Positions 13,807 to 41,031 of a stretch of 41,652 nt of DNA are shown one piece after another. Under the pieces are notes generated by a model. The model did no database searches. It was not told the origin of the DNA and saw nothing but the letters and a program-made list of their open reading frames with translations. The position numbers were made by a program, and so were the translations under genes. The stretch's first letter is position 1; each line of letters begins with the position of its first letter. Source of the stretch: Acidobacteriaceae bacterium. Lineage in GTDB: Bacteria; Acidobacteriota; Terriglobia; Terriglobales; Acidobacteriaceae. The stretch spans positions 1 to 41,652 of the forward strand of contig JANXUR010000096.1 in the NCBI GenBank assembly GCA_025356095.1. The letters are read 5' to 3'.

Positions 13807-13812
13807 TCCTGT

Positions 13813-13840: not shown

Positions 13841-13902
13841 ATCACCTTTCAGGATGGTTTCGCTCGTGAGCCTCAAGTGGTCACGATGGACGTTCCCGTC
13901 AC

Positions 13903-16444: not shown

Positions 16445-16467
16445 AGTCAGAGCATCTAACTGATTCG

Positions 16468-17169: not shown

Positions 17170-17306
17170 CCCCTCTGCAGAGGCACAAACGATTGGCTCG
17201 TAAACGAATGATGCACATATAGTTACTCCCGACTACGGTGAGGGTTCGATTCCGTCAGTTTTCCGGTAGACTGAGGGTTGTGGTTAGGGTTTTTCCGGCG
17301 CGGCTG

Positions 17307-17339
17307 GCGCGAACGTTGCGCGAACGTTGCGCGAACGAA
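17307..17339. repeat. 11-bp tandem repeat upstream of pilC
   Basis: GCGCGAACGTT occurs twice, followed by GCGCGAACGAA. Diverged copies continue (GCACGGACGTT, GCCCGAACGAT) to about 17372. The array lies 30-100 bases ahead of the pilC start, inside a longer open frame that lacks homology. Confidence 0.75.
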
Positions 17340-17402
17340 TTGCGGACCATGCACGGACGTTGCCCGAACGATACGCGGGCGAGAAACGAAGAGGAAGCAA
17401 GT

Positions 17403-18611: not shown

Positions 18612-18681
18612 GGGCCATCCGCTTCAGTTCGCTGCGCAGGTCACGGCGTAGCACCACACGAAAACGGTACACTGGAACTAC

Positions 18682-20316
18682 ATGGCAGAAAAAGTAGCAC
18701 TCTTTACCGCTGGAGAAGCCGCCCCGGACGACGTCACGCGGGCTCAGGAAGTCGCGCGCCGGTACCGCCGCGAGTTCGTGGATCTCCGCAACTTCCAACT
18801 CCACCACGACCTTTTCAAAAAGGTGCCGGTGGATTTGATGTTCCGTTACAATTTTGTGCCGCTGGAAGAGACTAGCGATGGCCGGTTGGCGATTGCCATT
18901 GCCGACCCCAGCCAGTTGATGATGATTGACGAAATCAGTCTGCTGCTGGGTCAGCAGGTGATGACGAAGGTCGCCACTCTGGCGCAAATCACTGACATCC
19001 TGAAGAAGACCGAGCAGTCGCAGCGGGTGCTGGAAGAAGCCAGCAGCGGCTTTACGCTCGACGTGCTACGCGAGACCGAAGATGGCGAGGAAACCATCTC
19101 CATCGAACGGCTGACGCAGCAAGGCGAAAGCCCGATCATCCGGCTGGTGGATACCACCATCTTCACCGCGCTGCAGCGCCGCGCCAGTGACATCCACATT
19201 GAGACGGGCGACGAGTCGGTAGTCATCAAATACCGCATTGACGGGGTGCTGCAGGCGGCGATGGCTCCCATCTCCAAAGAGCATCACCAGACCATCATTT
19301 CGCGCATCAAGGTGATGAGCGAGTTAGATATTGCGGAACGACGCGTGCCGCAAGATGGCCGCTTCCGGGTGCGCTTCAACGGACGCGCCATTGACTTCCG
19401 CGTTTCCATCATGCCTTCGATCCACGGCGAAGACGCTGTGCTTCGCGTACTCGATAAAGAGTCCATGAGCGAGAAGTTTCGCACCCTTACGCTGGACGTG
19501 GTGGGCTTTGCGGAAGATGATTTGCGGCGCTTCCGGCGCTATATTCAAGAGCCTTACGGCATGGTGCTGGTCACCGGGCCGACCGGTTCGGGCAAAACGA
19601 CCACACTCTACGCGGCGATCAATGAGATTAAGAGTGAAGAAGACAAGATCATCACCATTGAAGATCCCGTTGAGTATCAGTTGCGCGGCATCACACAGAT
19701 TCCGGTGAACGAAAAAAAGGGTCTGACGTTTGCCCGCGGACTGCGCTCGATTTTGCGGCACGATCCGGACAAGATCATGGTCGGCGAAATTCGCGATCAA
19801 GAGACGGCGCAGATTGCCATCAACTCGGCGCTCACCGGGCACTTGGTGTTCACCACCGTCCACGCGAACAATGTAGTGGACGTGCTGGGCCGCTTTCTGA
19901 ACATGGGTGTGGAACCCTACAACTTTGTTTCCGCTTTGAACTGCATTCTGGCCCAGCGACTGGTGCGGTTAATCTGCGAAAGCTGCAAACATCCGGTGAA
20001 GTATGACGACGAAACCCTACTCGCCAGTGGCTTGAAGCTGGCGGAGTGGGGCGACGTCACTTTTTACGAAGGGGATGGCTGCATGGAGTGTTCCGGCACG
20101 GGCTATCATGGCCGGACTGCCATCCACGAATTGCTGGAACTGAGCGATCCAATTCGCGAGATGATTCTTGCCCGCAAGCCGTCGTCTGAAATTCGTAAAC
20201 TGGCCCGCGAAGAGGGTATGCGCTTCTTGCGCGGGTCGGCACTAGACAAGGTACGAGCTGGCATTTCGACGCTCAAAGAAATCAACAAGGTTACGTTTAT
20301 CGAATCCACCCGGTAG
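18682..20316 (+). CDS. pilB: Type IV pilus extension ATPase PilB
   Basis: The 544-residue protein has the N-terminal domain followed by the GspE/PilB motor. Walker A is GPTGSGKTTT (about 298-307), the Asp box contains IITIEDPVEYQL, Walker B is DKIMVGEIRD, and the His box is LVFTTVHAN. A tetracysteine zinc site (CESC and CMEC) separates PilB-type extension motors from the retraction ATPase PilT. It powers pilus polymerisation with PilC. The gene starts 70 bases after pilC, with only a weak ribosome site. PilT, PilQ and PilD are not in this window. Confidence 0.94.
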   Translation: MAEKVALFTAGEAAPDDVTRAQEVARRYRREFVDLRNFQLHHDLFKKVPVDLMFRYNFVPLEETSDGRLAIAIADPSQLMMIDEISLLLGQQVMTKVATLAQITDILKKTEQSQRVLEEASSGFTLDVLRETEDGEETISIERLTQQGESPIIRLVDTTIFTALQRRASDIHIETGDESVVIKYRIDGVLQAAMAPISKEHHQTIISRIKVMSELDIAERRVPQDGRFRVRFNGRAIDFRVSIMPSIHGEDAVLRVLDKESMSEKFRTLTLDVVGFAEDDLRRFRRYIQEPYGMVLVTGPTGSGKTTTLYAAINEIKSEEDKIITIEDPVEYQLRGITQIPVNEKKGLTFARGLRSILRHDPDKIMVGEIRDQETAQIAINSALTGHLVFTTVHANNVVDVLGRFLNMGVEPYNFVSALNCILAQRLVRLICESCKHPVKYDDETLLASGLKLAEWGDVTFYEGDGCMECSGTGYHGRTAIHELLELSDPIREMILARKPSSEIRKLAREEGMRFLRGSALDKVRAGISTLKEINKVTFIESTR

Positions 20317-20488
20317 GCTGCAAGCAGCAGGGGCACCAAAGGGCGTCACTGTCGTAAACCGCGCAGCACCACGGTAGATGCCCGCTTCCGGGGTGCCATA
20401 AGTGCTATTGCGGAAGCTGGCGATTCAGGATTTCATCCTAAGTAGCAGTATTTTGTTCGAGTAACGGACGTAGGTTTCTACGGAGTCT

Positions 20489-21400
20489 ATGAGCAAAGTC
20501 AGTCCCATTCAGCGTCCTTATCTCGCTTGCGAAATTGCCACCGACGGCGTGGTGGCGGCGCGTGCCGCGGAGGGCGACCGCACCTTTGAGATGCTGGTAG
20601 GCCGCGAACTGGGCGAGGGAGTGGTGGCTCCGGATTTGACCGAGCACAATGTGTTGCAACCGGAAGTGCTGGCGCGCACCATTGGCGAGGTTTTGAATGG
20701 CGCGGGCGGCAAGGGCAAAGACGTGATCGCCGTGCTGCCCGATGCAGCATGTCGCGTAGTTCTGCTGGACTTCGACCAACTGCCGCCGAAACCGGACGAA
20801 GCAGATGGGGTGGTGCGCTTCCGGCTGAAAAAGTCGCTGCCCTTTGACGTGGAGCGGGCGCGAGTCTCTTATCAGGTGCTGCCGTCCGATGACGGTGTAC
20901 GCGTAGTCGCCGCAGTTGGTTTGGCTACCGTGCTGGATGAATACGAGCAAGCGTTTCGCGATGCTGGCTATGCGCCGGGAGTGGTGATGCCCTCCATGCT
21001 CGCCATGTTGAGCGCGGTGGAAGCCGCACAGCCGACGCTTATCGTAAAGGTAGATGCCCACACCACCAGTGTGGCGATCTTGCAGCATGACAAGCTGATG
21101 CTCTTCCGCACCGTTGAGAACAACAAAGGCAAGCCGCTGGATGGAGAAGCGTTAGCCGATGAAGTGTACCCCTCGGTGGTATTTTTCCAAGATACCTACC
21201 ACACCAACATCGAGCGGATTTATGTTTCTGGACTGGCGAATGCCAGTGAAGCCATTACGGCGTTAACCTCGCAGACCGGGATTGAAGCACGGGACTTGGT
21301 GGATGAAAAACGGCTCAATGCCATGGGTGCAGCGGCCAGTTCGGTGGCCAAGTCTCAACGCTGGCGGTTGGCGGGCGTGATGGGAGCTCTAGGATCATGA
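20489..21400 (+). CDS. pilM: Pilus assembly protein PilM-like (actin-like)
   Basis: The 303-residue cytoplasmic protein shows the PilM/actin-like pattern: YLACEIATDGVVAARA at the start, KDVIAVLPDAACRVVLLDFDQLP, RFRLKKSLPFDVERARVSY, and a C-terminal NAMGAAASS. PilM binds the N-terminal tail of PilN (the conserved INLASQPY follows in the next gene) and connects the cytoplasmic motor to the alignment complex. It overlaps the next gene by four bases (ATGA). The 172 bases upstream contain no clear promoter or terminator. The protein is shorter than the usual 350 residues but keeps the ATP-binding core. Confidence 0.85.
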   Translation: MSKVSPIQRPYLACEIATDGVVAARAAEGDRTFEMLVGRELGEGVVAPDLTEHNVLQPEVLARTIGEVLNGAGGKGKDVIAVLPDAACRVVLLDFDQLPPKPDEADGVVRFRLKKSLPFDVERARVSYQVLPSDDGVRVVAAVGLATVLDEYEQAFRDAGYAPGVVMPSMLAMLSAVEAAQPTLIVKVDAHTTSVAILQHDKLMLFRTVENNKGKPLDGEALADEVYPSVVFFQDTYHTNIERIYVSGLANASEAITALTSQTGIEARDLVDEKRLNAMGAAASSVAKSQRWRLAGVMGALGS

Positions 21401-22014
21401 ACACGCCGATGCGACTCAACATCAATCTGGCAAGCCAGCCCTACGAAGACGCCCAAGTATTTTGGCGCAAGTGGGGACTGGGACTGGCGGTTGCGGGCGG
21501 GATCACGCTGGCGGTGTTCGGACTGGCACTGCATGGAGCTTTGCAGGCTGCCAGCGCGCGCCAGCAGAAGAATATTTATCAAGGGGAGATTGCGCGCGAA
21601 GAAGAGGAGCGCAGCCAAGCTGAGGCGTATCTGGCGCGCGCAGAAAATCGAGATGTGCGTGACCGCGCCGCCTACATCAACGACTTAGTCCAACGGAAGT
21701 CGCTCTCGTGGACGCAGGTGCTTACTGACCTGGAAAAGATTATGCCGCCGCAGATTCATGTGGTTTCAATTCAGCCGGATACCCGCGCTAAGACCACTGG
21801 CCCGGCTGGTGCGGTGACGATCCACGTCAAGGTGGCGGGGCAGTCCCGCGACCGCGCTCTGGAGCTAGTGCGGCGCATGGAGCAGTCGCAGCACTTTCAC
21901 GACACGCTGGTTTCCAGTGAGCAGGCACAAGAGAATCCCAACAATCCCGACGACCGGCTGGAGTTTGAAATCAGCGCTCTGTACGTTCCTCCTTCCGCGC
22001 AGGAGGGCCGCTAA
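21397..22014 (+). CDS. pilN: Pilus assembly protein PilN
   Basis: The 205-residue protein has the PilM-binding tail INLASQPYEDAQ at residues 8-19, one transmembrane segment (about 29-52), a coiled coil from about 60 to 90, and a periplasmic ferredoxin-like domain. It overlaps pilM by four bases and pilO by one base (TAATG), so the three are translationally coupled. PilN and PilO pair in the periplasm to form the inner-membrane alignment complex with PilP. Confidence 0.9.
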   Translation: MNTPMRLNINLASQPYEDAQVFWRKWGLGLAVAGGITLAVFGLALHGALQAASARQQKNIYQGEIAREEEERSQAEAYLARAENRDVRDRAAYINDLVQRKSLSWTQVLTDLEKIMPPQIHVVSIQPDTRAKTTGPAGAVTIHVKVAGQSRDRALELVRRMEQSQHFHDTLVSSEQAQENPNNPDDRLEFEISALYVPPSAQEGR

Positions 22015-22556
22015 TGGCTGACCTGCGGGTTACGCGCAAAAAACTGCGGCGCGTATTTATTGTGCTGGCGGTGGTGGATGTATTGCTGATGGGGTTGTGG
22101 TTTTCGCCCTGGGGCCACGTCAGCGCCAATAAGCAAGTAGAGATTCAACAATTGGGCGAGCAAGCCAAGCTGAAGATGCAGCAGATGGGCCCGTACCAAG
22201 GCATGGATCAGAAGGTGACCGAAGCACGCAAGCAGCTTACCTCCTTCTACGCGGACCGTCTACCGGGAGAGCAGTCAGCGATTCTGGAGCAGTTGGGCAA
22301 GATCGCGACCGACCATCAGGTAAAGCTGAGTCAGGCCAAGTATGACGAGAAGTCTGACGAGCAAACCGCGGGCTTGCAGCCAGTGGAAATTGAAGCCAGC
22401 CTCGATGGCAACTATCTTGGCGTGGCGAAGTTTATTAATGCGGTGGAACGCAGCAAGATGTTTTTTCTGGTCAACAGCGTGAACCTTGGCGAATCGCAAG
22501 GCGGCATGATCAAGTTGCGGGTGAAGCTGGAAACCTTTCGGCGAGTCGGTTCCTAA
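22014..22556 (+). CDS. pilO: Pilus assembly protein PilO-like
   Basis: The 180-residue protein has a short basic cytoplasmic tail, one transmembrane segment near residues 14-32, a helical rod (about 40-75), and a C-terminal beta/alpha domain ending in KLRVKLETFRR. The position after pilN, the coupling and the domain plan identify PilO despite low sequence conservation in this family. It partners PilN. Confidence 0.8.
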   Translation: MADLRVTRKKLRRVFIVLAVVDVLLMGLWFSPWGHVSANKQVEIQQLGEQAKLKMQQMGPYQGMDQKVTEARKQLTSFYADRLPGEQSAILEQLGKIATDHQVKLSQAKYDEKSDEQTAGLQPVEIEASLDGNYLGVAKFINAVERSKMFFLVNSVNLGESQGGMIKLRVKLETFRRVGS

Positions 22557-22574
22557 GGCTGGGATAGCGATTTT

Positions 22575-23237
22575 ATGAAGCTGGGTGCGGAAAACAAGAA
22601 GCAGATCATGATTCTGGCAGGCATAGGCGTAGTCGCGCTCATTCTGCTGGCCCGCACATTTTTTAGCGGAGATGATTCCGGACCGGCTCCGGCCGCCACC
22701 AACAGTCCGGCGGCGGTGCTGAACGGAGCGGCTGCCACCGCCAACGCTGCGGGCGGAGCGACTTCTTCCACTGGAAAGCCATCTGCACCGGTCCTAGGCA
22801 AAAATGGCAAGCGGCCCAAGCCGATTCCCAATGCGCTGGACCCGCGTTTGCATCTTGACCAACTGCAAGGCACCGAAGGCCTAAGCTACGAAGGCAGTGG
22901 GCGCAACATTTTTGTAGCGAGCGCGGAGATTCCAGCCGTGGTGAAGACGCCTCGCTTGACCCCAAAGCAAACCAAAGAACAAGACTACGCCCGGCTGCAT
23001 CCGCCACCACCGCCGATTCCGCAGCCGCCGCCGATTAACTTGAAGTTTTATGGCTTTGCCAGCAAAAATGGCGAGTCCAAGAAGATTTTTCTCTCGCAGG
23101 GCGAAGACATCTTTGTGGCCAGTGAGGGCGACGTCATCAGCCGGCGCTATCGCATTGTGAAGATCAACCCGACTTCGGTGGACATTGAAGACACGGTGAG
23201 CCACCACACGCAAAGCATTCCGCTGACGCTCGGATAG
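22575..23237 (+). CDS. PilP/GspC-like periplasmic protein with Pro-rich linker
   Basis: The 220-residue protein has an N-terminal transmembrane segment (residues 10-28) and an Ala/Gly/Ser-rich linker. A polyproline stretch (HPPPPPIPQPPP, about 142-153) follows, then a beta-rich domain with LKFYGFASKNGESKKIFLSQ and GDVISRRYRIVKI. PilP in proteobacteria is a lipoprotein that bridges the PilN/O complex to the PilQ secretin. Here the protein has a membrane anchor and no lipobox, so it matches GspC in topology and the HR-like C-terminal domain. The role is inferred from gene order. Confidence 0.72.
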   Translation: MKLGAENKKQIMILAGIGVVALILLARTFFSGDDSGPAPAATNSPAAVLNGAAATANAAGGATSSTGKPSAPVLGKNGKRPKPIPNALDPRLHLDQLQGTEGLSYEGSGRNIFVASAEIPAVVKTPRLTPKQTKEQDYARLHPPPPPIPQPPPINLKFYGFASKNGESKKIFLSQGEDIFVASEGDVISRRYRIVKINPTSVDIEDTVSHHTQSIPLTLG

Positions 23238-23308
23238 AAGATAAGCCGATTGCTGCTTCTGACCAGCAATTGCACGACGCGAACCGTCCCATTAGCATCT
23301 CAAATAGT

Positions 23309-24418
23309 ATGGATACTTCTCTACTCCGCCGCCTGCACCGCGCAAACCGAGCGAGCCGCGCCGTTTGTGCAGGTGTCCGGCATCAGCACGGCTACATTCT
23401 GCTAGCGCTGATGCTGGTGGTGACCGCACTGGCCATCGCGGCGCTGGCGGTGTATCCCGATGTGGTGAAGCAGGTAAAGCGGGATCAGGAAGAGGAGTTG
23501 ATTCATCGCGGTGTGCAGTATTCGCGCGCCGTGCGCAAGTATTACAAGAAGTTCAATCGCTACCCCAACAGCGTGGAAGACCTGCTGAACACTAACAACC
23601 TGCGGTTTTTGCGGCAGAAGTATAAGGACCCCATTACTGGCAAGGAGTTCAAGCTGCTGCATCAGCAGGACGTGCAACTGTCGTTTGGGCAGGCAGGAGG
23701 AGCACTCGGAGCTGTGGGCACGGCTTTGCCGCCAAACGGCCGAGTGAACGGCGGAACCGGCTTTGGATCAAGTTCTGGATCGGGTTTTGGATCGAGCTTT
23801 GGACAAGGCGGCGGGCAAGGGTTTGGCGGCAATCCGCCACAACCACAACCCCCACCAGACGCAAACGATGGCCAGGGGCAGCCAGCCTCCGGTGCAGGCG
23901 GTAGCGACGCCAATGGCGGTGGAGCAACCGATGGTGGCGGCACGAGTCAGGGCCTCGGCGGCAACCAGCAAGCTGGCGGAACCGGCCAGAACGGCAACAA
24001 GGGCGGCGACGGCCAAGGTAGCGACTCCGGCGGATCGTCGTCGAGTTCTTCAGGGTCATCAGGGTCATCGGGCTCATCGGGTTCGTCAGGCTCGGGTAGT
24101 TCGTCCGGCTTTGGCAGTTCAGGGTTTGGCGGCGGGCCCGTGGTTGGCGTAGTAAGCCTGAGCAAGGCCGTGACGATTCGCGAGTTCAACAAGAAGAACC
24201 ACTACAACGAGTGGCAGTTTATCTACGATCCCAGCCGCGATCGCGGCGGTCTGCTGAATGCTCCCGTAGTGGGTGGGCAGCCAGGCGGAGCCATTGGCGC
24301 TGGAGGCGGCCAAGGTAGTACACCGGGTGGACTGCCCGGCGCACCCGGCCAGCCGGGTTCTGGACAACAGCAGGTACCTCCCAATCCCGAGCCGCCGCCG
24401 GAACGGCTGAATAACTAG
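23309..24418 (+). CDS. Pseudopilin-like protein with long Gly/Ser-rich region
   Basis: Translated from ATG 23309 the protein has 369 residues; TTG at 23270 is possible and neither has a clear ribosome site. After a basic leader comes HQHG|YILLALMLVVTALAI, a prepilin-like cleavage site with Gly at -1 but Ala rather than Glu at position 5. A GspG-like helix follows, and KFNRYPNSVEDLL with KYKDPITGKEF is typical of type II pseudopilins. About 150 residues of low-complexity Gly/Ser/Asn/Gln come next (near 125-275), then a short folded part (IREFNKKNHYNEWQFIYDPS), then a Gly/Pro-rich tail. It is probably a minor pilin or pseudopilin of this machine. Loss of Glu5 is normal only for tip subunits such as GspK. 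Confidence 0.75.
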   Translation: MDTSLLRRLHRANRASRAVCAGVRHQHGYILLALMLVVTALAIAALAVYPDVVKQVKRDQEEELIHRGVQYSRAVRKYYKKFNRYPNSVEDLLNTNNLRFLRQKYKDPITGKEFKLLHQQDVQLSFGQAGGALGAVGTALPPNGRVNGGTGFGSSSGSGFGSSFGQGGGQGFGGNPPQPQPPPDANDGQGQPASGAGGSDANGGGATDGGGTSQGLGGNQQAGGTGQNGNKGGDGQGSDSGGSSSSSSGSSGSSGSSGSSGSGSSSGFGSSGFGGGPVVGVVSLSKAVTIREFNKKNHYNEWQFIYDPSRDRGGLLNAPVVGGQPGGAIGAGGGQGSTPGGLPGAPGQPGSGQQQVPPNPEPPPERLNN

Positions 24419-31133: not shown

Positions 31134-33092
31134 CTACTTCCGAATCACGCTGGGTGTGCCCACTCGTCTGACCGAGCCGTCGGGACTGTGTTCGACCTGA
31201 TGGCAGGTGAGCGAGCAGGTGTTGCGGCTGCGATTGTAAGAAATGGGTGCACCACTTACCGGTGCAACTACTTTCAGGTCGAAACTCACCAAACGCTCAC
31301 CGGTACTATTAGCCGCAGAGATCTGCGTGCCATGCGCGGTGTGGCAAGTGGAACAACTGAAGCCCGCGTTCAAATGCGAGGAGTGACCTTTAAAGCTGCT
31401 ATCTTGCAAGATGGTCGTGAGATTGTGGCATTTCCCACACAGGGCATACGGCCCCTGACTGCTGGTATCAGGGCTGGGGTACAGGTTAGAAATCAAATTG
31501 CCGGGCAGCACAGCCTTGCTGAACTCATAGCGGCGCTCCAGAATATGTGACCACTTGGAACCGTGCGGGCCATTCGGGCCAGAGCCGCCAAATTCGCGAT
31601 TGTCGTCGCTGTTGTGGCAATCGGAACAATAAATTCGCTGACCCATCTCGCGCCCAAGGGTACTTCCGTCGAGATTCAGCATATTCTGCCGCAGGCTGGG
31701 CTGAGGCAGCGAACTGGTACGGTTTTGGGCTACCGGATGGCTGGAGCGCGATAGATTGCCAAATTGAGGAATCAGGTTGAGTGGATCCCCATCTAAACTG
31801 GAACGCAGCGGAGCATATCCAAACTTGGCGCTGACGTCCTTACCTCGGCTGGCGCCGTGGCACCGGAAGCAGACCTCATACTCGGCGAGCGCAGTCTTTA
31901 CAGCGGCTACGGAGTTGGTGGCACTCACGCCAACCGCGCCCACTTGCGACGCCCGTACCTGCGGTGCCGCCGTGTAACTGGTGGTGGCTTGCACGGAGTG
32001 CGGGTTGTGACAATCAATGCAGCCAGTCAACGTGGGGTTGTTGGGCATGATGACACGACCACTCCGGGCTGCCTGCGATGGGCTTATGATAGGCGGTGTT
32101 TGGGCCTGATTGGTGCCGGAAGCAAGCGGGTGGCCAATCTTCGCGTATTCGGCAGCCACATTCCACCGGGCTGATTTCGCTGTGGGGGTAGGTGCCACGC
32201 GAGGCGGTATGACTGTGCCTCCACGCGCCGCAGGAGTGATGACGTTCACCGGACTGGTGCCGGAATGGCAGTTGAGGCAGACCTGATCACCTGCTCCGCG
32301 CAACAACCAGTCGGGGCCAGCAGCGTTGTGGTCGGCATGGCAGTTGAGGCATGCATTAAGGGCGAGAGTCCCATAAGGAAGATTCTGCACTGCGGTGGTG
32401 GAAGTCGCGTGAATGCTCTGGGCCCATCCTGCCAACCCACTCGGCGCACCATTCAGCACACGGTTGGGGTCATGGCACGCCAAACACAATGCCCCGCTCG
32501 AGCTGTCTTTCACCAGAAAATTGCGGGCAACGGTATCTTTTGACTCTACGTGCGGGTTGTGACAAGTGGTGCACTCAAGGTTGCCGCGAACCAGCTTGAC
32601 GTTGGCTGCGTCGGCTGTGGTTCCGCTGGAATAAAGGCTAGCTACCAAGTCCGGTGCGTCGTTCAGGGGCAACACCAGACTGACTGGGTGCGACGGTTGC
32701 AAGTTGGCAATGGTGTCTTGCGCCGTGAGCTTGCCCGTCGCAATCTGTCCGTAAACCACGGTGGTGCCGGCGGCTATCGTGCCATCGTGGCAGCTAAGGC
32801 ATAGATTGGTCTGGGTCTGAGGCGGCACCGTAGAGTTCCCTTTTTCCGCGTAGGTGGAACTAGAGTACGGGGTATAGCTCTGTACTGTAAGCTTCTGATT
32901 CCACAAGTCATTATCCAGCCCCGAGTGCGGGGCGTGGCAATACTGGCACGATCCCGGAGCGGTGCCTTTTACCGGCGAGGAACTGCCCGGGCCTAAAGCA
33001 TGTTGCCCAATCACGTCCGTGGAAATTTGCGCAGCGGCTGGGCCTGCGCTGAAGCAAACTGCTAGGCACCCAAGTAACACCTGTAGCTTCAT
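31134..33092 (-). CDS. Secreted multiheme c-type cytochrome, 11 CXXCH plus one CX3CH site
   Basis: The 652-residue protein has a signal peptide (residues 1-22, ending AAAQ). Eleven CXXCH sites are read directly (CQYCH, CLSCH, CTTCH, CLACH, CLNCH twice, CIDCH, CFRCH, CSDCH, CGKCH, CSTCH), plus CSLTCH near the C-terminus. Several sites are followed by a second His (CHAPH, CHNPH, CHTAH), so doubled-CXXCH style bis-His hemes are expected. The N-terminus STDVIGQH then CQYCHAPHSG matches that of the small tetraheme protein in this operon. It overlaps the NHL gene stop by three bases, so the two are coupled. Likely the outer-face or periplasmic electron carrier of the beta-barrel conduit. Confidence 0.93.
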   Translation of the reverse strand: MKLQVLLGCLAVCFSAGPAAAQISTDVIGQHALGPGSSSPVKGTAPGSCQYCHAPHSGLDNDLWNQKLTVQSYTPYSSSTYAEKGNSTVPPQTQTNLCLSCHDGTIAAGTTVVYGQIATGKLTAQDTIANLQPSHPVSLVLPLNDAPDLVASLYSSGTTADAANVKLVRGNLECTTCHNPHVESKDTVARNFLVKDSSSGALCLACHDPNRVLNGAPSGLAGWAQSIHATSTTAVQNLPYGTLALNACLNCHADHNAAGPDWLLRGAGDQVCLNCHSGTSPVNVITPAARGGTVIPPRVAPTPTAKSARWNVAAEYAKIGHPLASGTNQAQTPPIISPSQAARSGRVIMPNNPTLTGCIDCHNPHSVQATTSYTAAPQVRASQVGAVGVSATNSVAAVKTALAEYEVCFRCHGASRGKDVSAKFGYAPLRSSLDGDPLNLIPQFGNLSRSSHPVAQNRTSSLPQPSLRQNMLNLDGSTLGREMGQRIYCSDCHNSDDNREFGGSGPNGPHGSKWSHILERRYEFSKAVLPGNLISNLYPSPDTSSQGPYALCGKCHNLTTILQDSSFKGHSSHLNAGFSCSTCHTAHGTQISAANSTGERLVSFDLKVVAPVSGAPISYNRSRNTCSLTCHQVEHSPDGSVRRVGTPSVIRK

Positions 33093-34213
33093 GGTGTGCC
33101 CCCAACTAGATGACCCGGCCGCGCGAAATATTGAAACACCTGCACCCGGCGGTTTTGTGAATCGGCAACGAAAATACGGTCGTTGCGGTCAATATACACG
33201 CCAGCCGGAAGCTCGAACTGACCCGCCGCGCTGCCTCTTCCTCCAAAGTGATACAAGAGTTGACCTTGGGGATTGAATACCTGCACCACACCCCAAAGGC
33301 CATCCACCACATAGAGGTCCCCTTCCGAATCCACGGCAACCCCTTTGGGGCGGAACATCGCACCATTGCCATCGCCCAAGCGGCCAATGGCGTACTTGAA
33401 GCTGCCATCTCGGCCGAGGACTTGCACCCGGAAGTTCATGGCATCCACCACGACGAGGTTTTCGCCGTTGAGCCGCAATTCGGTGGGATAGTTGAACTCG
33501 CCTTGGCCGGAACCGCGCTTGCCGAAAGTTTGCAGCACATCTCCGTTCATATCGAGCAGATAGATTTTGTGGCGCAGAGTATCGGTGACGTAAATGCGCT
33601 GGGCCGTAGAATCCACCGCGATCCCCGTGGGGCGCTTAAAGCGGCCTTCTCCACCGATGCTGCCGATCACGCGGGCAAATTTGCCTTCGGCGTTGTAAAC
33701 AAAGATCTTCCCCGTCTCCGAGTCTGTAAGGTAGATGTTGTCGTCGGCGTCCACCGCGACACACTGCGGAGCGATCATTGCATCCTTATCCTTCGTGGAA
33801 CGGCTTAAGAACTTATACTTTTCCCCAACGAAGTCAAAGATGTGGGCACCACCAGCGCCGGGATCTGCGACAATGATGCGACCGCGCGAATCAGTTGCCA
33901 CACTGTAAGGCCGACTCAGCGAATGGAACGTTGGTTCGCCAGCCACCACATCGAGCACACGCGTCCAAAAGCCACGCTTCAGCTTTACTTCCCGTTCGGT
34001 GGTGAAGCTACGCTCGTACACCAGCTTGCGACCACCCAACAACATCACTTCCGGCACCACAGCCTCGACCGTCTTGGACTTGGAGGGGGCCTTGGCAAAA
34101 GTCGGGGAGGGACAGGCGCAGAGAAGCCCGACGCAAGCCAGTATCCTCCACCAGCCTGCCCGGTACCCTAATGCCTGTTGCCCGCTCGCTCGGCCTAGAA
34201 ACAATTGAACCAT
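33089..34213 (-). CDS. NHL-repeat beta-propeller protein, exported (cytochrome-operon copy 2)
   Basis: The 374-residue protein has an N-terminal signal segment (hydrophobic stretch near residues 23-37). About six NHL blades follow, each with a hydrophobic V-D-(S/D/A)-x-G/D turn: ATDSRGRIIVADPGAG, AVDADDNIYLTDSETG, AVDSTAQRIYVTDTLRH, RLNGENLVVVDAMNF, AVDSEGDLYVVDGLWG and YIDRNDRIFVADSQNRRV. Such propellers are often found next to multiheme cytochromes, where they may hold complexes together. It overlaps the beta-barrel gene end by 19 bases and is coupled to the cytochrome that follows. No clear ribosome site precedes the ATG. Confidence 0.9.
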   Translation of the reverse strand: MVQLFLGRASGQQALGYRAGWWRILACVGLLCACPSPTFAKAPSKSKTVEAVVPEVMLLGGRKLVYERSFTTEREVKLKRGFWTRVLDVVAGEPTFHSLSRPYSVATDSRGRIIVADPGAGGAHIFDFVGEKYKFLSRSTKDKDAMIAPQCVAVDADDNIYLTDSETGKIFVYNAEGKFARVIGSIGGEGRFKRPTGIAVDSTAQRIYVTDTLRHKIYLLDMNGDVLQTFGKRGSGQGEFNYPTELRLNGENLVVVDAMNFRVQVLGRDGSFKYAIGRLGDGNGAMFRPKGVAVDSEGDLYVVDGLWGVVQVFNPQGQLLYHFGGRGSAAGQFELPAGVYIDRNDRIFVADSQNRRVQVFQYFARPGHLVGGTP

Positions 34214-36066
34214 CGGTAGATACTAATACTAAATGTCGAATTTGTGGTGGGTGCAATGCTGCTCGCACTAAACCCCTGCACCAGCCGGCTATAGCCGCCG
34301 CTGATGCCTAACTTACGGACCTGATACCGCACCTGCACCAGTTCTTCCTCTAGTTTATTCGAAGAGAACACCAGATGGGTGGTAGTGCTGGAGTCAGCCT
34401 TCAGGTAGGTAGTAGAGAATGTCAACCCTCGCCGCAACGCGCCCGAGAGTGTGGTGGAATACGAAGTGCCTCCGTAGGCAATCAGCAACTCGGGCGGAAT
34501 CACCGGGGGAAGCGGAGTGTTGCCTGCCGCCAAACCATCGCCACTGGACTTCGCATAGTTGCTTTGCAATGAAAATCCGCGGTAGCCCACGCCCATCGAG
34601 TAACTCTGGCTAGCATAGCCGGTATGAGGTTGATTGGTGATGCCGCTGTGGCCGAAGCTGGCTCCGCCGCTCCAGATAAAGCGCCCGAAGCGACGGCCCA
34701 CGTTCCCGGTGAAGTTATAACTGGAACTGGTGTAGGTGATGAGCAGAGTCTGCACACTTTGCGAGTACCCGCCTGCAACCGACCAGGTCCAATTGCCAAT
34801 CTGTCGTGCGTAGTTTCCGTTCACGTTTAAACCCACTACATTCTCACCCGCATAGCTGAGGCGGGTGTCGGTTACAAAGACATTGCTGTTGAAGAAACCT
34901 CCGCCCAGGGGCCGCGTGTACTGCCCCCCGCCACCAAAAGAATTCGACGCATAATCCGAGCCCCGATAGATTTGCTGGCGGTGCAGCACCTGCCCGGTTA
35001 CCGTCCAATTTCGAGGAAAAGCGTAGGTGGTGGTGCCGTTCAAATCCCACGCCCGCGACGACTGCGAGCTCACCACTACAGGCGCAATCACACCCACCAT
35101 CTGACCGGGCCCACCCACTTGGGTTGCTCCGCTCGCGGAGGCGACAGCGCCGGGTACACTCGCCTGATAAAGCTGACCGTTCAAGTTGTCATTAAAACTT
35201 GTATTGATAGAAACATTCCAGTTCTGCTTGGGATAAAACCCTACCGTCGAACTCACTGTGTCTATCGTTCCGTTGAAAGAGTACCCCAAATAGCTACTAT
35301 TAAGGTCGTTGCGCGAGTAAGTGGCTGCAACGCTGCCCTTGAGGGGCAGTAAATGAGACGCTGAAGCGTAGAAATTCTTATCATGCGCGGTTGATGTAGA
35401 ACTTTGTTGCCCGCTGAACAACTGCGGAACCTTTGAAGCATTCGAAAGGAAGCCCGCGCCCGCGTTCAAGTTGAATCCGCTTACACGATACTGCGAGTTC
35501 AGGTAAAAATTATTATAGGCAGAGTTGCCGTTCTGCTGGCTACCAAACAGCGAATAATCAGAAGAACCTTTGGTGTAACCCACAGTTACGCTAGGCACAC
35601 CTCGCAAGACTTCGCTCCATGCCACGCTGAACGCCTGACCGGTGCCGTGGGTGATATAGTCAGGCAATCCTGGCAGATGGTAGTTGCCCGTGCTGTTGAT
35701 CGTCTTGGTATAGGAGACATAACCCGGAAATGGACTGCCCGAAAAGATGCTCGCGCCTGCATCTACGCCGGAGGCATCCGTTATGGATTGGCTATCTGAG
35801 TTCGACCTCGACTGGTTGACGTAGGGATTGATGTGGAACGAGAGGAAATTCGGGTTGTAAAAGCTACCGGTGATTGCGCCGGTCCCGCCATACGATAATC
35901 CATGGCTTGATTGCACCGCGTCACCGTACGCCCCAGAATATCCGCCAGAGATGGTGCCGCTCGCAGCCACATCAAGGCCGGGCAGTACCTGAATCTGGGC
36001 AGTTGCGGCGCTGCACAGCATCGCTACGCTCACCACCAGACTACGAATTACGCGTAACTTTGCCAC
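34195..36066 (-). CDS. Outer-membrane beta-barrel protein, probable porin of an electron conduit
   Basis: The protein has 623 residues from GTG 36066, which has GAGGGG seven bases upstream; TTG 36081 is the longer option. A signal peptide ends ATAQ. The body is almost entirely alternating short strands rich in Ser, Tyr, Gly, Asn and aromatic residues (for example TWSVAGGYSQSVQTL, YSMGVGYRGFSLQSNYAKS), with the final residue Phe in IYRWFNCF, as for BAM substrates. Length and operon (multiheme cytochromes and NHL proteins on both sides) suggest the porin part of a porin-cytochrome complex comparable to MtrB/PioB or the Geobacter conduits. I cannot show direct homology. Twenty bases separate it from the PPIase gene. 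Confidence 0.82.
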   Translation of the reverse strand: MAKLRVIRSLVVSVAMLCSAATAQIQVLPGLDVAASGTISGGYSGAYGDAVQSSHGLSYGGTGAITGSFYNPNFLSFHINPYVNQSRSNSDSQSITDASGVDAGASIFSGSPFPGYVSYTKTINSTGNYHLPGLPDYITHGTGQAFSVAWSEVLRGVPSVTVGYTKGSSDYSLFGSQQNGNSAYNNFYLNSQYRVSGFNLNAGAGFLSNASKVPQLFSGQQSSTSTAHDKNFYASASHLLPLKGSVAATYSRNDLNSSYLGYSFNGTIDTVSSTVGFYPKQNWNVSINTSFNDNLNGQLYQASVPGAVASASGATQVGGPGQMVGVIAPVVVSSQSSRAWDLNGTTTYAFPRNWTVTGQVLHRQQIYRGSDYASNSFGGGGQYTRPLGGGFFNSNVFVTDTRLSYAGENVVGLNVNGNYARQIGNWTWSVAGGYSQSVQTLLITYTSSSYNFTGNVGRRFGRFIWSGGASFGHSGITNQPHTGYASQSYSMGVGYRGFSLQSNYAKSSGDGLAAGNTPLPPVIPPELLIAYGGTSYSTTLSGALRRGLTFSTTYLKADSSTTTHLVFSSNKLEEELVQVRYQVRKLGISGGYSRLVQGFSASSIAPTTNSTFSISIYRWFNCF

Positions 36067-36083
36067 GACGACGCCCCTCAAGA

Positions 36084-37106
36084 CTACAGCACTTCAATCT
36101 TCGCGGTTTGGCGCAACTTCTTATCGAGTGCGGCGCGAATTTGGTTGGTCTTTGCCAGTTCGACTTCTTTCTTGATCTCCGCCTGCACCGCACGGAATGG
36201 CCGCTTGGCCGCCGGGACATGCTTATCCAAACGAACAATCGTGAAGATCTGCTCTACCTGCACGATGTCGGTTACCTGTCCAGGTTGCATCTTCAGTAGC
36301 TTCTCCACGAGATTGGGGGCTAACTGCGCCCGGTCTGTGAGCGGATGCGACCCCATCATCACCCGGTAGTCATCTTCGGATACCTTCTCCGCGAGTAGCC
36401 CAAACTCTTCCGCAGTCTTGGCCGCCCTGGCCTTTGGCAACGCAGTCTCGGCGCGCTTGCGAGCTTCCGCTAACTGGGCTGGAGTTGCCTTCGGCGGCGG
36501 CAGAAATGAGATTGTCTGCAACGAGAAGGACTCAGGATACTGATACTTATTCGCGTTCTTGCTATAGAAGCTTTTGAGTTCCACAGGAGTAGCGACGGAT
36601 TTATGATTCACTTCGACCTCCAAGTATCGGTCAATCAGGATCGAGCGGCGTATCTTTTGCCACAACTTAGCCTCGGAACCTTGGAACTCAACTTGCAGCG
36701 CAGACCTGTAAACTGCTGGACTCGCAAACTGTTTCTTGAAGTCGGCTTCCGCGCGTTGTAACAACGCGGATGGCACTACAATATTGCGGCGTAGAGCCTC
36801 TTGATAAACCAACTCCTCAAAGACGATCATCTGCATCGCGCCCTTGCGGATGCCGGGCTCCATTTGCGCAGGAATATCGCCGTTGTGCTGCCGCGCATAG
36901 GGGAAGATGGTGTACTCTTCCCGGGCCAAATCTAAATCGGTCAGTACCGCTCCATTTACCCGCGCCACTGGGCGGCCAACGGGCCGAGCGGTCACAGAAA
37001 CCGGCTGGGGGGTGGCGTGCGTCGTGCCATGCGACGGAGCAAGTTGCGTCGCGGCCGGCATAAGCATGCCGAGAACCGCAAGTCCGAGCATCATTGGGTT
37101 TTTCAT
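36084..37106 (-). CDS. SurA-like parvulin peptidyl-prolyl isomerase, exported
   Basis: The 340-residue protein has a signal sequence (start at ATG 37106, with AAGGA eight bases before it). An N-terminal SurA-like helical part follows, containing RVNGAVLTDLDLAREE and KGAMQMIVFEELVYQEALRR. The later half holds a parvulin domain: SFSLQTISFLPPPK, a helix LAEARKRAETALPKARAAKTAEEFGLLAEKVSED, and GSHPLTDRAQLAPNLVEKLLKMQPGQVTDIV. These proteins help fold or deliver outer-membrane and secreted proteins. In Geobacter nanowire-type cytochrome clusters, PPIases are recurrent neighbours (from memory). It may serve the adjacent barrel or the cytochromes. Confidence 0.88.
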   Translation of the reverse strand: MKNPMMLGLAVLGMLMPAATQLAPSHGTTHATPQPVSVTARPVGRPVARVNGAVLTDLDLAREEYTIFPYARQHNGDIPAQMEPGIRKGAMQMIVFEELVYQEALRRNIVVPSALLQRAEADFKKQFASPAVYRSALQVEFQGSEAKLWQKIRRSILIDRYLEVEVNHKSVATPVELKSFYSKNANKYQYPESFSLQTISFLPPPKATPAQLAEARKRAETALPKARAAKTAEEFGLLAEKVSEDDYRVMMGSHPLTDRAQLAPNLVEKLLKMQPGQVTDIVQVEQIFTIVRLDKHVPAAKRPFRAVQAEIKKEVELAKTNQIRAALDKKLRQTAKIEVL

Positions 37107-37141
37107 AGTTGCATTCCTTACTGAGCTCTTTACTATAAATT

Positions 37142-37171
37142 CTGGGGAAGGAGGAACTTCTCCTCCCCCAG
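37142..37171 (-). terminator. Intercistronic hairpin downstream of the tetraheme gene
   Basis: CTGGGGAAGGAG pairs with CTCCTCCCCCAG across a six-base loop with one mismatch, in the 82-base gap between the tetraheme gene and the PPIase gene. It could end part of the transcripts or protect the 3' end, raising the mRNA level of the upstream genes relative to the downstream ones. No T tract is visible. Confidence 0.5.
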
Positions 37172-37188
37172 AGTAGTGAAGCAGCAGA

Positions 37189-38067
37189 CTAGAAGATGGT
37201 TCCAGCCGTGCTGCCGTTGTTTTCGTTGGCTTCGCCACCATGGCACTGCCGGCAGAACTGAGCCGTCTGGTTGCCACCGGGGTTCTGGTCGTTGATGTTG
37301 TAAGGAGCGCGAACAAAGAACGCGCTCAGGTAGGTGCCGCTGCCCAAGCCGGTAGTTACGCCGCCGTCATTTACGACGTTGACGATGTTCATGACATGCT
37401 GGTTGTGGCACGTAGTGCACAACACGGCAGGCTGGTTATTGATCGCGGCCGGAGCTACGAAGAAGCCATAGTTATTCACGAACTTCTGCATGTTCGGGCC
37501 ATAGATGATCTTGCCCGTCGCGGAGACCGTGCAGTCCCAGTTGTAGGGGCCGCCGCAGCCGATGATGGCGGCGGAGCCTACCGGGTGATCATTCAGGTAA
37601 TCGCCTTTGGCGGCGTTTCCGTCGTTGCCAAGCTCGGTAGGAATATTGTTCGAGGCATAAGTGCTAGGGACCGTCTCAAACACCGTGTTCTTCATCATGG
37701 CACCGACTGCATAGTTACCATCATGACAGCTAAGGCAAGCCGTGACGCCCAGAGCATCGGGGGCGGCGCGGACGCCAAGAGCGGGAAGCGTTTCAGAGAA
37801 AGACAGCCCGAAATCAAACTGTCCGGTCACGATGGTTTTGCCTACTAGAGGAGCAACATCTTGACCCCACAGGGCAACATCGCCACTGACTGTATCAGTG
37901 GACGCGATGCCATTGCCACGAGCGCCGCTATGCGGTGCATGGCAACCCGCGCAGCCGCGGCCATAGTTCAGGTGGGCACCTAGAACGTCCGTGGATACCG
38001 TACCAATCTGCGCCATCGCTAAACCTGTAAGGCCTAGTACCATGAGCACTAATGCTAGTTTTTTCAT
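37189..38067 (-). CDS. Small tetraheme c-type cytochrome, candidate filament subunit (OmcE-like)
   Basis: The 292-residue preprotein starts at ATG 38067 (AGGAGG nine bases upstream). Its signal peptide, MKKLALVLMVLGLTGLAMAQ, ends at residue 20. Four CXXCH sites occur: CAGCH (39-43), CLSCH (111-115), CTTCH (217-221) and CRQCH (272-276). Outside these the mature protein has exactly four His: H32, H46, H161 and H224. That allows all four hemes to be bis-His, as in cytochrome filaments. Two extra Cys (C171, C179) could form a disulfide. Large gaps rich in Asn, Gly, Ala and Thr lie between hemes. The Geobacter OmcE filament is a tetraheme protein of this class, but homology is not shown here. Neighbours are an NHL protein, a PPIase, a barrel and two larger cytochromes. 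Confidence 0.9.
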   Translation of the reverse strand: MKKLALVLMVLGLTGLAMAQIGTVSTDVLGAHLNYGRGCAGCHAPHSGARGNGIASTDTVSGDVALWGQDVAPLVGKTIVTGQFDFGLSFSETLPALGVRAAPDALGVTACLSCHDGNYAVGAMMKNTVFETVPSTYASNNIPTELGNDGNAAKGDYLNDHPVGSAAIIGCGGPYNWDCTVSATGKIIYGPNMQKFVNNYGFFVAPAAINNQPAVLCTTCHNQHVMNIVNVVNDGGVTTGLGSGTYLSAFFVRAPYNINDQNPGGNQTAQFCRQCHGGEANENNGSTAGTIF

Positions 38068-38207
38068 TGGGTAGAACCTCCTGATTTGTGTTGCAACACC
38101 ATACATCTACTGCTTTTGAAAGCTACTGCTTACTACTTATTGCCAGAGACCGGCGATGCCGGCATTGCCAAATACCCGCTTCGGCCCGAACTGGCAACCA
38201 AAAATCT

Positions 38208-39497
38208 TCATTGCTTCACCGCAGACTTTTGACGGGGGTGCTCTTCGAGTGCGGGCGTTCCGGTGGACGCCTGCGTCCGCGCAGCCTTGTCCTTACCACG
38301 CTGATCTTCTTTTTGCTTTTTTATATCCGCCGCTTCGGCATTGCTAACATAGCGGAACATCTGCACACGGCCGGGATATTGCTCGCTGGTGAACACGCGA
38401 TTTTGTTTGTCCACAAACACGCTGGCGAGCGCAAAGAACTGTCCCGGGCCATTGCCGTGACCTCCTAAAAACGCCAGTAACTCGCCATCTTTGTTGAATA
38501 CTTGCAGTAAGTCGAGCATGGCGTCGGCAACCCAGATGTTGCCATCGCCATCTATTGCAACGCCCTTGGGATGCGCGAAGCAGCCCGGCCCATCACAGTG
38601 GCGGCCAAACTGACTTACAAACTTTCCGTCTGCGTCGAATATTTCCACCCGGTAGTTCATGGTGTCAGTCACATATACGTAGCCATCCTTGTCCACTGCC
38701 ACGCTGGTGGGGCCAGAAAAATCGCCGGGGGTAGTTAGTTCGTGTTTCTTGCCCGTGGTGCCTATCGCGCGAACTAGCTTCAGGCTGTCGGCGTCGTACA
38801 CCAAAACCTGATCAAGTTGAGTATCGGTCACGTAGAGCAGTCGGTTTTCGCGGTCAATCGCTAGCCCGTTCGGATCTATCATGCCTTCGCTGATTTGATC
38901 TACTACCTCGTGTTTGGCGTTGTAGACCAGAACGTGATGCAGCTTGCCGTCCGAAATAAAGACGCGGTCGTCATCATCCACTGCAACGCCATTCACCAGC
39001 TTGAAGGGGGCAGGCGCGCCATTGTGGATCATGTCTGCTTCATGGTTCTCGGTGTTGAACATAAATACAGCACCCACTCGCTGATCGGCGACGTATAACG
39101 TTCCTTTGGAATCTACCGCCATGCCCACGGGACCTAGCAGTTGAAACGGCATGAGCCGTTGCTTGGATTTGGGGTCATCTTCGGGCCTGACTCCGGCAAG
39201 CCGATCCATCCACTTCTGTTTACCTTTGGGCGCAGGCGCGCAGGAGTCAAACTTCTGGCCTGCAAAGTAAGTCACATACTTGATTCGAGCTACGTTCGGC
39301 GGTGCGGGCCACACTAATGTGGCGGGGTCAATCACGATCTTCTTCGGTCCAGATTGGGGTGCAGCGGGCGCAGCAGCCTTCTTCTTGTCTTTGCTGCCGG
39401 CATAGCTCACCACAGGGGCCAGGACGACTGCGCTCAGCAACCCGCACACCATCAGCCACTTGATACTTCGGATTCCGTTGTTGGTAACTGATGCCAT
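38208..39497 (-). CDS. NHL-repeat beta-propeller protein, exported (cytochrome-operon copy 1)
   Basis: The 429-residue protein has a signal peptide (hydrophobic segment about 12-30, ending SYA). An Ala/Lys/Pro-rich linker (about 33-52) leads to roughly six NHL blades: AVDSKGTLYVADQRVG, AVDDDDRVFISDGKLHH, AIDRENRLLYVTDTQLDQ, AVDKDGYVYVTDTMNYR, AIDGDGNIWVADAMLD and FVDKQNRVFTSEQYPGRV. The C-terminal 45 residues are charged and Lys/Gln-rich. AGGAG lies seven bases before ATG. It lies between the 16-heme and tetraheme genes; a role as scaffold for cytochrome assembly or docking is inferred. The gap to the tetraheme gene (140 bases) holds a short GCCGGC-containing inverted repeat and nothing else clear. 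Confidence 0.9.
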   Translation of the reverse strand: MASVTNNGIRSIKWLMVCGLLSAVVLAPVVSYAGSKDKKKAAAPAAPQSGPKKIVIDPATLVWPAPPNVARIKYVTYFAGQKFDSCAPAPKGKQKWMDRLAGVRPEDDPKSKQRLMPFQLLGPVGMAVDSKGTLYVADQRVGAVFMFNTENHEADMIHNGAPAPFKLVNGVAVDDDDRVFISDGKLHHVLVYNAKHEVVDQISEGMIDPNGLAIDRENRLLYVTDTQLDQVLVYDADSLKLVRAIGTTGKKHELTTPGDFSGPTSVAVDKDGYVYVTDTMNYRVEIFDADGKFVSQFGRHCDGPGCFAHPKGVAIDGDGNIWVADAMLDLLQVFNKDGELLAFLGGHGNGPGQFFALASVFVDKQNRVFTSEQYPGRVQMFRYVSNAEAADIKKQKEDQRGKDKAARTQASTGTPALEEHPRQKSAVKQ

Positions 39498-39507
39498 TGT
39501 TAGTCTC

Positions 39508-41031
39508 CTACTTCGTTTTGGTAAGTGCTAATCGGTTCTTATGGCAGTTATCGCAGAAGGCCATGTTGTTGGCCTGGTCTTTCAGCAATAGGTCCTGCTC
39601 CGCAGATGCGTGCGGCTGATGGCAACTGAGGCAGCTCAATGGTGTTTTGACTACACTGGCGTTAGTGGCATCTAAAATGTCTTGCACTGGATGTGCGGAA
39701 GTAGGATGGCCAACGCCATACCGCAACGGCAGCAACACCACGCGATTTTTCTTGTAATAGTCTTCGGGTAATTTGACTTTGCCCCCAAAGATGGTGACTG
39801 CGTGGGCGGCTTCCAGTTTCTGCGGTCTGGCGTCCGGACCGTGGCATTCTAGGCACAAGTCGTTGCCCTTTGCCCGAAGCAACTTGGGCCGATCGCCGCC
39901 ATGCGCTTCGTGGCAGATGGAGCATGCCTGGCCAAACGCTGGCTGGTGCAGATGCGCCTTGTTACCCTGCTTGGCCTGATCGCTATGGCAATCGAGGCAG
40001 ATTTTTACCGGCGTACTTTTGGGCAGGCCGGGCGTCTTGCTGGCATGTGGATTGTGGCAATCGGTGCAGTCGCCAGCGGCTCCGGGGTGCGGCACCTTTG
40101 CCGTTTCAATCTGCTTCACCTTCTCGTCGTGGCAGGTGACGCACAGCGTCTTGGCCTCGGGCTGCGTCAGCACCACCTTGCCATCTTTGGCGGCGGCGTG
40201 GCAGGTATCACAGCTCTTATCCGCAAACGGAGCGTGCAAGACCGCCTGCATCAACTTCGGCGTATCCGACTGATGGGGATTGTGGCAGGTAACGCAGTTG
40301 GCGGTGGCAAAGGGCTGGCCTTGGTGCGCCTTCTGAAGATTGGCATCCTTGGCATCGTGACAATCGAGACAGAGCGCCGGGGTCGCCTTGGTCAGGTGAT
40401 AGTCAAACTCTTGCTTGCCAGGTTCGCCCACTTTGTGAGTGGTATGGCAGGTATCGCAGCCCGCATCTAGCGCGGCATGGCGGCTGCCTTTTGCCGGAAT
40501 GTTCTGGCCATTGGTATGGCAGTTCAGGCAAAGATTCTCTTTGCTCTCACCAGCAGTCGGCTTACGCAGCAGGTTCTTGTTGTCTGCGGTGTGCGCACTG
40601 TGGCAAACCAGGCAGTTGCGCTGCGCGGGTGCGTGTACCAACCCTTTTTGGCTCGCATCCTTCTTATCGGAGTGGCAGGTGCCGCAGAGCGCCGCCGGAG
40701 TGGCAGTAATCAGCTTGATCCGGGTGACGTCTTTGTTGTTTCGAATCTCATGGCAACTGTTGCAACCTAGCGCAATGGCCGAGTGGACGAAGTTTCCTTT
40801 GGAATGGTCTTCGTGGCACTCGAGGCATTTTGCGGTAGGAGTATTCGCATCCAGCTGCGTGGGATGGGTGGCAGCCAGCGCGACTTTCGAGCCGCACAAC
40901 AAAATCAAAGAGAGCACTAGAGCGGAAAAGCAGGAGTCGAACCGAAGAACTGGCGCGGCGAAAGGAGTCCCCTTTGGTGCCTGATGCGCCCTCTTCGCTC
41001 GGCAAACCGTTCGTGACTCTCTGTTTTTCAT
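39508..41031 (-). CDS. 16-heme periplasmic c-type cytochrome (doubled CXXCH type)
   Basis: The 507-residue protein has sixteen CXXCH sites by direct count, beginning CLECHEDH and ending CDNCH. Spacing is regular at about 25-35 residues, and second His residues follow many sites (CHSAH, CHTTH, CHNPH, CHEAH, CHQPH). This is the doubled-CXXCH/NrfB-DmsE-like rod plan, suited to carry electrons along the periplasm to the outer membrane. A signal peptide with a long basic front (about residues 1-32) and hydrophobic core ends near VALA. It is probably the first gene of the operon, and a CRP-like palindrome lies 60-75 bases upstream. No strong ribosome site is seen, so the start could be later. Confidence 0.92.
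   Translation of the reverse strand: MKNRESRTVCRAKRAHQAPKGTPFAAPVLRFDSCFSALVLSLILLCGSKVALAATHPTQLDANTPTAKCLECHEDHSKGNFVHSAIALGCNSCHEIRNNKDVTRIKLITATPAALCGTCHSDKKDASQKGLVHAPAQRNCLVCHSAHTADNKNLLRKPTAGESKENLCLNCHTNGQNIPAKGSRHAALDAGCDTCHTTHKVGEPGKQEFDYHLTKATPALCLDCHDAKDANLQKAHQGQPFATANCVTCHNPHQSDTPKLMQAVLHAPFADKSCDTCHAAAKDGKVVLTQPEAKTLCVTCHDEKVKQIETAKVPHPGAAGDCTDCHNPHASKTPGLPKSTPVKICLDCHSDQAKQGNKAHLHQPAFGQACSICHEAHGGDRPKLLRAKGNDLCLECHGPDARPQKLEAAHAVTIFGGKVKLPEDYYKKNRVVLLPLRYGVGHPTSAHPVQDILDATNASVVKTPLSCLSCHQPHASAEQDLLLKDQANNMAFCDNCHKNRLALTKTK

Follow-up and report, generated by a model that had tools for sequence, protein, structure and literature searches.

A divergent OmcE-type tetraheme cytochrome encoded with an Mtr-type conduit in Acidobacteriaceae: a candidate nanowire subunit

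The window analysed here, i.e. the whole stretch of 41,652 nucleotides of contig JANXUR010000096.1 from an Acidobacteriaceae bacterium, carries on its minus strand, at positions 37189..38067, a gene for a tetraheme c-type cytochrome of 292 aa (hereafter TET) with an OmcE-type four-heme module, which profile comparisons assign to the OmcE-type tetraheme superfamily. Judged from sequence and by analogy with known cytochrome wires, TET is probably the unit that repeats along an extracellular filament of OmcE type, representing a divergent lineage and wired to an Mtr-type conduit; this reading is preferred here with modest confidence.

The open reading frame of TET begins with an ATG at 38067 and ends with a stop codon at 37191-37189; the first-pass annotation of this DNA named no strand. 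An AGGAGG ribosome site, pointed out already in that annotation, is present and ends 9 nt before the ATG. The N-terminus, MKKLALVLMVLGLTGLAMA-Q, resembles a signal peptide with the putative cleavage ...AMA/Q placed by eye, those of the relatives being, also by eye, alike. The translation bears out the four CXXCH motifs described previously, at positions 39, 111, 217 and 272 (precursor numbering here and below), and a total of eight histidines, just four of which—H32, H46, H161 and H224—are found outside the motifs. The AlphaFold2 model of TET obtained with 40 sequences was unusable (pLDDT 44.4, pTM 0.30) and, as expected for such a model, Foldseek gave no matches with it at E<=0.001; because of the low pLDDT, no conclusion is drawn from this null result. 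By contrast, the OmcE from a Desulfuromonas has been modelled with pLDDT >90 (PMC12133095).

With regard to the relationship to proteins of known structure, the single TET sequence used in phmmer against the PDB retrieved one irrelevant match only (E 0.54), a family profile being needed. The profile, compared with 177,635 distinct PDB sequences, yielded exactly one match at E<=10, namely 9YUQ (whole-sequence 7.4e-6), the best single stretch of that match being weak (i-E 0.012). The entry, named 'Putative multiheme cytochrome c' and consisting of 16 chains—the entry name was not found in the literature searched—has the same eight-His layout as TET, although it is shorter (218 aa vs 292 aa), and matches OmcE (7TFS) at 7e-33. 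In hhalign, TET was aligned with the OmcE-like proteins at 99.84% and 3e-29 over 215 columns, whereas the six controls, four-heme windows taken from the operon's two further cytochromes, reached 1-67% and 7e-6 or worse over no more than 79 columns; the similarity therefore far exceeds the sharing of CXXCH motifs. The OmcE-like profile compared with the same control windows resulted in middling values (43-94%, best 1.7e-8), which are far from 3e-29 though not negligible. The similarity to OmcE, which the first-pass annotation had left aside, has thus proved to be real. TET and the OmcE from Geobacter sulfurreducens (7TFS) have in common the order H - CxxCHxPH - CxSCHDG - NDHP - CxxCHxxH - CxxCH, differing in length (292 and 232 aa, respectively, with the signal peptide) and in that TET is encoded together with an Mtr-type conduit.

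These comparisons make it extremely improbable that TET is a common periplasmic cytochrome with four hemes, akin to c3 or STC and unconnected with OmcE. Two Pfam models do recognise TET—Cytochrome_C7 with 28.6 bits (cut-off 24.8) and Cytochrom_c3_2 with 25.2 bits (cut-off 25)—but the best stretches of both cover just one or two of its heme sites, while the homology to the OmcE-like proteins extends over 215 columns and, at E<=10, the profile search that found 9YUQ brought up no chain of c3 or STC type. Nor did TET prove clearly homologous to a periplasmic cytochrome that does not polymerise, an outcome that had been named as counting against a filament.

The scan of the genome collection revealed 47 loci with TET relatives, 44 of them labelled as Acidobacteria; the remaining three (L045, L047 and L048) are partial or weak. 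The contig of L045, labelled Formivibrio, carries an acidobacterial-looking cluster with a 16-heme protein 61% identical; this is probably a case of mis-binning, and no further phylum was scored on its account. The closest relative in the named genome collection, sharing 85% identity, originates from an Acidobacteriaceae MAG (locus L002). The TET alignment consists of 40 rows, i.e. the window and 39 loci, the partial or weak L041-L048 being excluded. Among 396 sampled genomes of the phylum, a match to TET at E<=0.001 was present in 23, and the TET lineage itself was recognised at E <1e-60 in six, with three copies in G163 and two in G394; a seventh genome (G258) contains a fragment of the lineage at a contig end. 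As for the remaining sixteen, the matches are OmcE-like open reading frames in eleven and 11-heme proteins in three of them. Clear relatives of OmcE occur in other acidobacteria, e.g. at L078 (41% identity, 9e-44); these OmcE-like frames are mostly 207-347 residues long, with one of 555, and an NHL-like frame lies within a short flank in 10 of the 11 loci concerned, the exception being L075. Homologues of OmcE have been said to occur across bacteria and archaea (PMC12307469).

The histidines are exceptionally well preserved, those corresponding to H32, H43, H46, H115, H161, H221 and H224 being present in all 40 aligned sequences and H276 in 39, with the exception of L027, which has three CXXCH motifs. 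The eight-His layout H - CxxCHxPH - CxSCH - H-P - CxxCHxxH - CxxCH was found in all 93 modules compared, 45 of which come from the TET family, 33 from the N-termini of 11-heme cytochromes and 15 from OmcE-like proteins, with OmcE and 9YUQ among the latter; to enter this set, four CXXCH motifs were required and the four distal histidines were not, L027 was excluded, and one extra CXXCH was skipped in one L074 frame. The central argument of the first-pass annotation, i.e. that exactly one spare histidine is available per heme, turns out not to discriminate, since an identical layout is kept, in 29 of 29 cases, by the module that forms the N-terminus of the operon's own 11-heme cytochrome. The count of histidines alone was therefore rejected as evidence for a filament: one spare histidine per heme marks the module, not the filament. 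Little is common to OmcE and OmcS beyond CxxCH, the geometry of the distal histidines and the inter-subunit histidine (PMC9473688), and the known cytochrome wires are similar in the arrangement of their hemes without being homologous (reviewed in PMC12954529), so that the layout seen in TET is as expected for a wire subunit, without proving one.

The TET gene is the third of seven forming a cluster on the minus strand, running from 41031 to 31134 in the order 16-heme cytochrome, NHL protein, TET, PPIase, beta-barrel, NHL protein and 11-CXXCH cytochrome. All seven genes were recognised in 25 of the 47 loci, 23 of which have them in the order of the window on one strand, whereas in L008 and L034 the order is rearranged. 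TET is found without the cluster at L019, L035, L041 and L047, L048 is below the match threshold, and the other loci are partial. The first gene (39508..41031) encodes an MtrA/DmsE-type cytochrome of 507 aa, presumably periplasmic, that is matched by TIGR03508 at 4.7e-52 with 177 bits, i.e. below the cut-off of 192.2; its profile matches chain A of 6R2Q at 6e-27. The genes on the two sides of TET code for an NHL-repeat beta-propeller of 429 aa (NHL429; 38208..39497; PF01436 7.1e-24) and a PPIC/SurA-like peptidyl-prolyl isomerase of 340 aa (36084..37106; PF13145 3.3e-13, PF00639 9.9e-9), a second propeller of 374 aa (NHL374; 33089..34213; PF01436 8.9e-30) being located further downstream; the PPIase and NHL neighbours noticed in the first-pass annotation thus correspond to one Rotamase/SurA-like PPIase and two NHL proteins. 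At L014 (474-6144), the strand opposite to that of the cluster carries, upstream of it, genes for ResB, a cytochrome c assembly protein, a histidine kinase and a sigma-54 response regulator, which could possibly form a maturation and control unit.

The 628-aa product of the gene at 34195..36081 ends with a C-terminal Phe and has no sequence match in the PDB. Its AlphaFold2 model (pLDDT 72.8, pTM 0.51), containing 28 strands of at least 12 residues, found chain B of 6R2Q first both in Foldseek (1.1e-10, TM 0.50) and in VIA-align (Z 18.4, 454 residues aligned, 5.3 A), the runner-up in the latter being a TonB-type barrel with Z 16.7; according to the model, the protein is an outer-membrane beta-barrel of MtrB type at the level of fold only. 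The title of 6R2Q gives the Mtr complex, although the molecule name that the file attaches to chain A is odd; chains A and B are taken here to be MtrA and MtrB, respectively, so the likeness to the Mtr complex comprises the 16-heme protein by sequence and the barrel by fold. The MtrA-like protein of the window differs in having 16 CXXCH motifs, MtrA having 10, and the third cytochrome of the window differs in starting with an OmcE-like module.

That third cytochrome, encoded at 31134..33092 and recognised by sequence profile, is 652 aa long, presumably located outside, and has 11 CXXCH motifs and one CX4CH. Its residues 1 to about 211 form the OmcE-like four-heme module, followed by seven CXXCH and the CX4CH, and its profile has four PDB matches at E<=0.01, which include 7TFS (2.9e-24) and 9YUQ (9.9e-20) and no Mtr chain. 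Similarly built 11-heme proteins are present in other acidobacteria (L073, L077, L079 and L084). In hhalign, the N-terminal module is even slightly closer to TET than the OmcE-like proteins are (5.5e-31 vs 3e-29). As far as proteins still richer in motifs are concerned, the only other place in the window's own genome matched at E<=0.001 by the paired-CXXCH model (L057, contig 61) encodes a repetitive giant multiheme protein, with a frame of 23 CXXCH adjoining one of 5 CXXCH, and a frame with 42 CXXCH motifs was seen in another acidobacterium (L095, 14358-17453).

Two evolutionary trees were calculated, the first one with about every second TET and M652 row and the second one with about every third, the long-branched L067 row being omitted from the latter. 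In both of them, the members of the TET family cluster tightly (100/100) and are separated by a long branch (1.3 and 1.9), which is positioned outside the clade of OmcE and 9YUQ (96/94 in the first tree; a 97/96 split in the second). In the second tree, the TET branch groups together with the modules of the 11-heme protein of its own operon (97/96). Forcing all free-standing tetrahemes into one clade was, however, not rejected (p-AU 0.176), so that TET, a member of the superfamily, may or may not be an orthologue of OmcE.

The tree grouping, the hhalign values and the use of a homologous module at the N-terminus of the 652-aa cytochrome are all in favour of TET being a non-polymerising four-heme shuttle or docking partner, secreted or periplasmic, that would exchange electrons with that cytochrome. 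The preference for a filament is weakened by the module in the 11-heme protein, because the layout is evidently compatible with a non-polymerising use. Such a shuttle is nevertheless considered somewhat unlikely, owing to what occupies the slot of TET elsewhere in the phylum. At L097, belonging to another family, the order is NHL, tetraheme, PPIase, a 697-aa frame, NHL and 11-heme protein, and the tetraheme protein in the slot of TET matches OmcE at 4.6e-27 and is placed inside the OmcE clade (100/93). The 697-aa frame, for which no Pfam match was obtained, is assumed from its place to be the barrel, and L096 exhibits a similar gene order without a recognised PPIase. The OmcE homologue at L097 ties this operon position to OmcE-type proteins independently of the TET sequence. 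Moreover, the set of PPIase, propeller and channel resembles the companion cluster of OmcS (PMC13194489), which also argues against a mere shuttle. The proposal that TET is a nanowire candidate is accordingly strengthened, though not proven, by the homology to OmcE, the common layout, the slot at L097 and the helper genes, but it loses the His count, and in neither tree is TET placed inside the OmcE clade.

Directly 3' of TET there is a 13-pair RNA hairpin with a loop of 6 (37172-37141, minus strand), terminator-like or mRNA-stabilising, the 59 nt around it having -27.2 kcal/mol with z -3.9 and none of 200 shuffles as good. A stem of at least nine pairs follows TET in 32 of 39 loci; after six other genes of the cluster the counts are 2/35, 12/40, 3/36, 2/28, 0/29 and 2/27—the 12/40 being found after NHL429, the gene before TET, and the 0/29 after NHL374—and in controls inside genes they are 0 to 3. 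The 90 nt 3' of TET, compared with shuffles, have a median z of -2.2, with 21 of the 39 loci below -2. Among L002-L040, the hairpin has a strikingly similar sequence in many relatives, of the GGGGAGAG...CTCTCCCC type, with a U-run in some of them. Since most hairpins are without a clear U-run, which was seen in 9 of 32, termination is not certain; the hairpin may terminate or attenuate transcription or else stabilise the mRNA.

On its upstream side, TET is preceded by a gap of 140 nt (38068..38207, minus strand) containing the AGGAGG, and in the relatives no other gap of the cluster is as long as the one before TET (median 376 nt, n=32), the medians at the other junctions ranging from -19 to 100. 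No sigma-70 promoter consensus was found in 36900-38300. The long gap and the hairpin would fit a separate, possibly stronger, expression of TET, although an own cistron with a hairpin would suit an abundant soluble shuttle equally well. Codon usage, evaluated as CAI against the frames of ribosomal operons, gave no support to high expression: TET of the window has 0.605 (cluster range 0.556-0.63), in five of the six genomes (those of the window, G073, G202, G257 and G394) its value falls inside the span of the neighbouring genes, and only one copy from G163 (0.763) is above all the cluster genes. The gap and the hairpin are therefore left as the sole support for that idea; of what the first-pass annotation had deduced from the hairpin, its reality is confirmed, together with its conservation, whereas the unusually high expression finds no sign in codon usage.

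The same features are relevant to whether TET might belong, in a single fixed copy, to the outer-membrane conduit complex itself, e.g. as a spacer separating the 652-aa cytochrome from the one in the barrel. Its steady presence in the operon with the MtrA-like, MtrB-like and 11-heme genes would suit such a role, which is, however, clearly improbable: TET is set apart by the long upstream gap and the downstream hairpin and, unlike a fixed stoichiometric part, it has moved or multiplied (L008, L034, G163 and G394).

If TET does form a filament, as preferred here, electrons would leave the periplasm via the 16-heme cytochrome of MtrA type, enclosed by the MtrB-like barrel, and the 652-aa outer cytochrome would take them from the conduit and hand them on to a chain of tetraheme subunits. 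All four hemes of each subunit would be bis-His, with one distal histidine, most likely H46 (in CAGCH-AP-H46), entering the neighbouring subunit by analogy with OmcE and OmcS. The inter-subunit histidine of OmcS is presumably that in the first CxxCHxxH, to which H46 would correspond. The PPIase might aid folding and the NHL propellers might take part in assembly or determine shape, roles that have been suggested for OscH and OscD; the export and polymerisation of TET, its inter-subunit ligand, the direction of electron flow and the helper roles are all inferred here. Pilin- or pseudopilin-like frames, together with PilC/GspF-, PilB/GspE-, PilM-, PilN-, PilO- and PilP-like genes, were recognised by eye at 11514-24418, some 7 kb away from the cytochrome genes; it has been suggested that pilin-type systems export the Geobacter wires.

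A further, tentative and rather unlikely, extension is that the wire starts from the 652-aa cytochrome, whose OmcE-like module at the N-terminus would be the first subunit, onto which TET would stack via the same His-to-heme contact; the operon would then encode a complete conduit-plus-wire machine leading from the periplasm to the filament. If true, the anchoring of a cytochrome nanowire to an outer-membrane conduit, and the electrical joint between the two, would be explained.

The PPIase and the beta-propeller beside the cytochrome gene, as an osc-like cluster would have them, are present in the window; in G. sulfurreducens, following Shen et al. 2025, OscH is reportedly a PPIase, OscD is propeller-like and OscE-G are channel-like. 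With regard to the function of the osc cluster, the wire gene of OmcS is accompanied there by factors for folding (OscH), secretion (OscE-G) and morphology (OscD) (PMC13194489), such a companion cluster being described also in PMC12977616. The likeness is that of a cytochrome wire gene lying beside such factors, the helper genes being likened by description; the wire is, however, the hexaheme OmcS there and a tetraheme candidate here. The OmcS operon also contains the relatives OmcT and GSU2501 (PMC12977616), which the multiple TET copies of G163 and G394 parallel. The physiological role of the OmcE and OmcS filaments themselves is disputed (PMC13194489).

In the available parts of the literature on OmcE-like or wire-type cytochromes in Acidobacteria, no description of the TET operon was found. 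A likely porin-cytochrome complex in this phylum was first claimed for Holophaga (PMC7399161), and the existence of OmcE relatives in Acidobacteria may already be known to specialists; what look new are the operon as a whole, the equivalence of its tetraheme slot with that of L097 and the presence of a wire-type module in the outer cytochrome. In a 2013 study of a peat-soil metagenome, OmcE, OmcS and OmcZ were sought by annotation and TBLASTX and none was found (PMC3669403), perhaps because the TET lineage is so divergent. The secretion, anchoring and electron feeding of cytochrome wires have been called speculative or unresolved (PMC12307469). Since a wire-type tetraheme, an Mtr-type conduit and a cytochrome with a wire module are brought together in one conserved operon, the connection between wire and conduit becomes directly testable, and the finding points to wire-type electron transfer in peat and soil Acidobacteriaceae.
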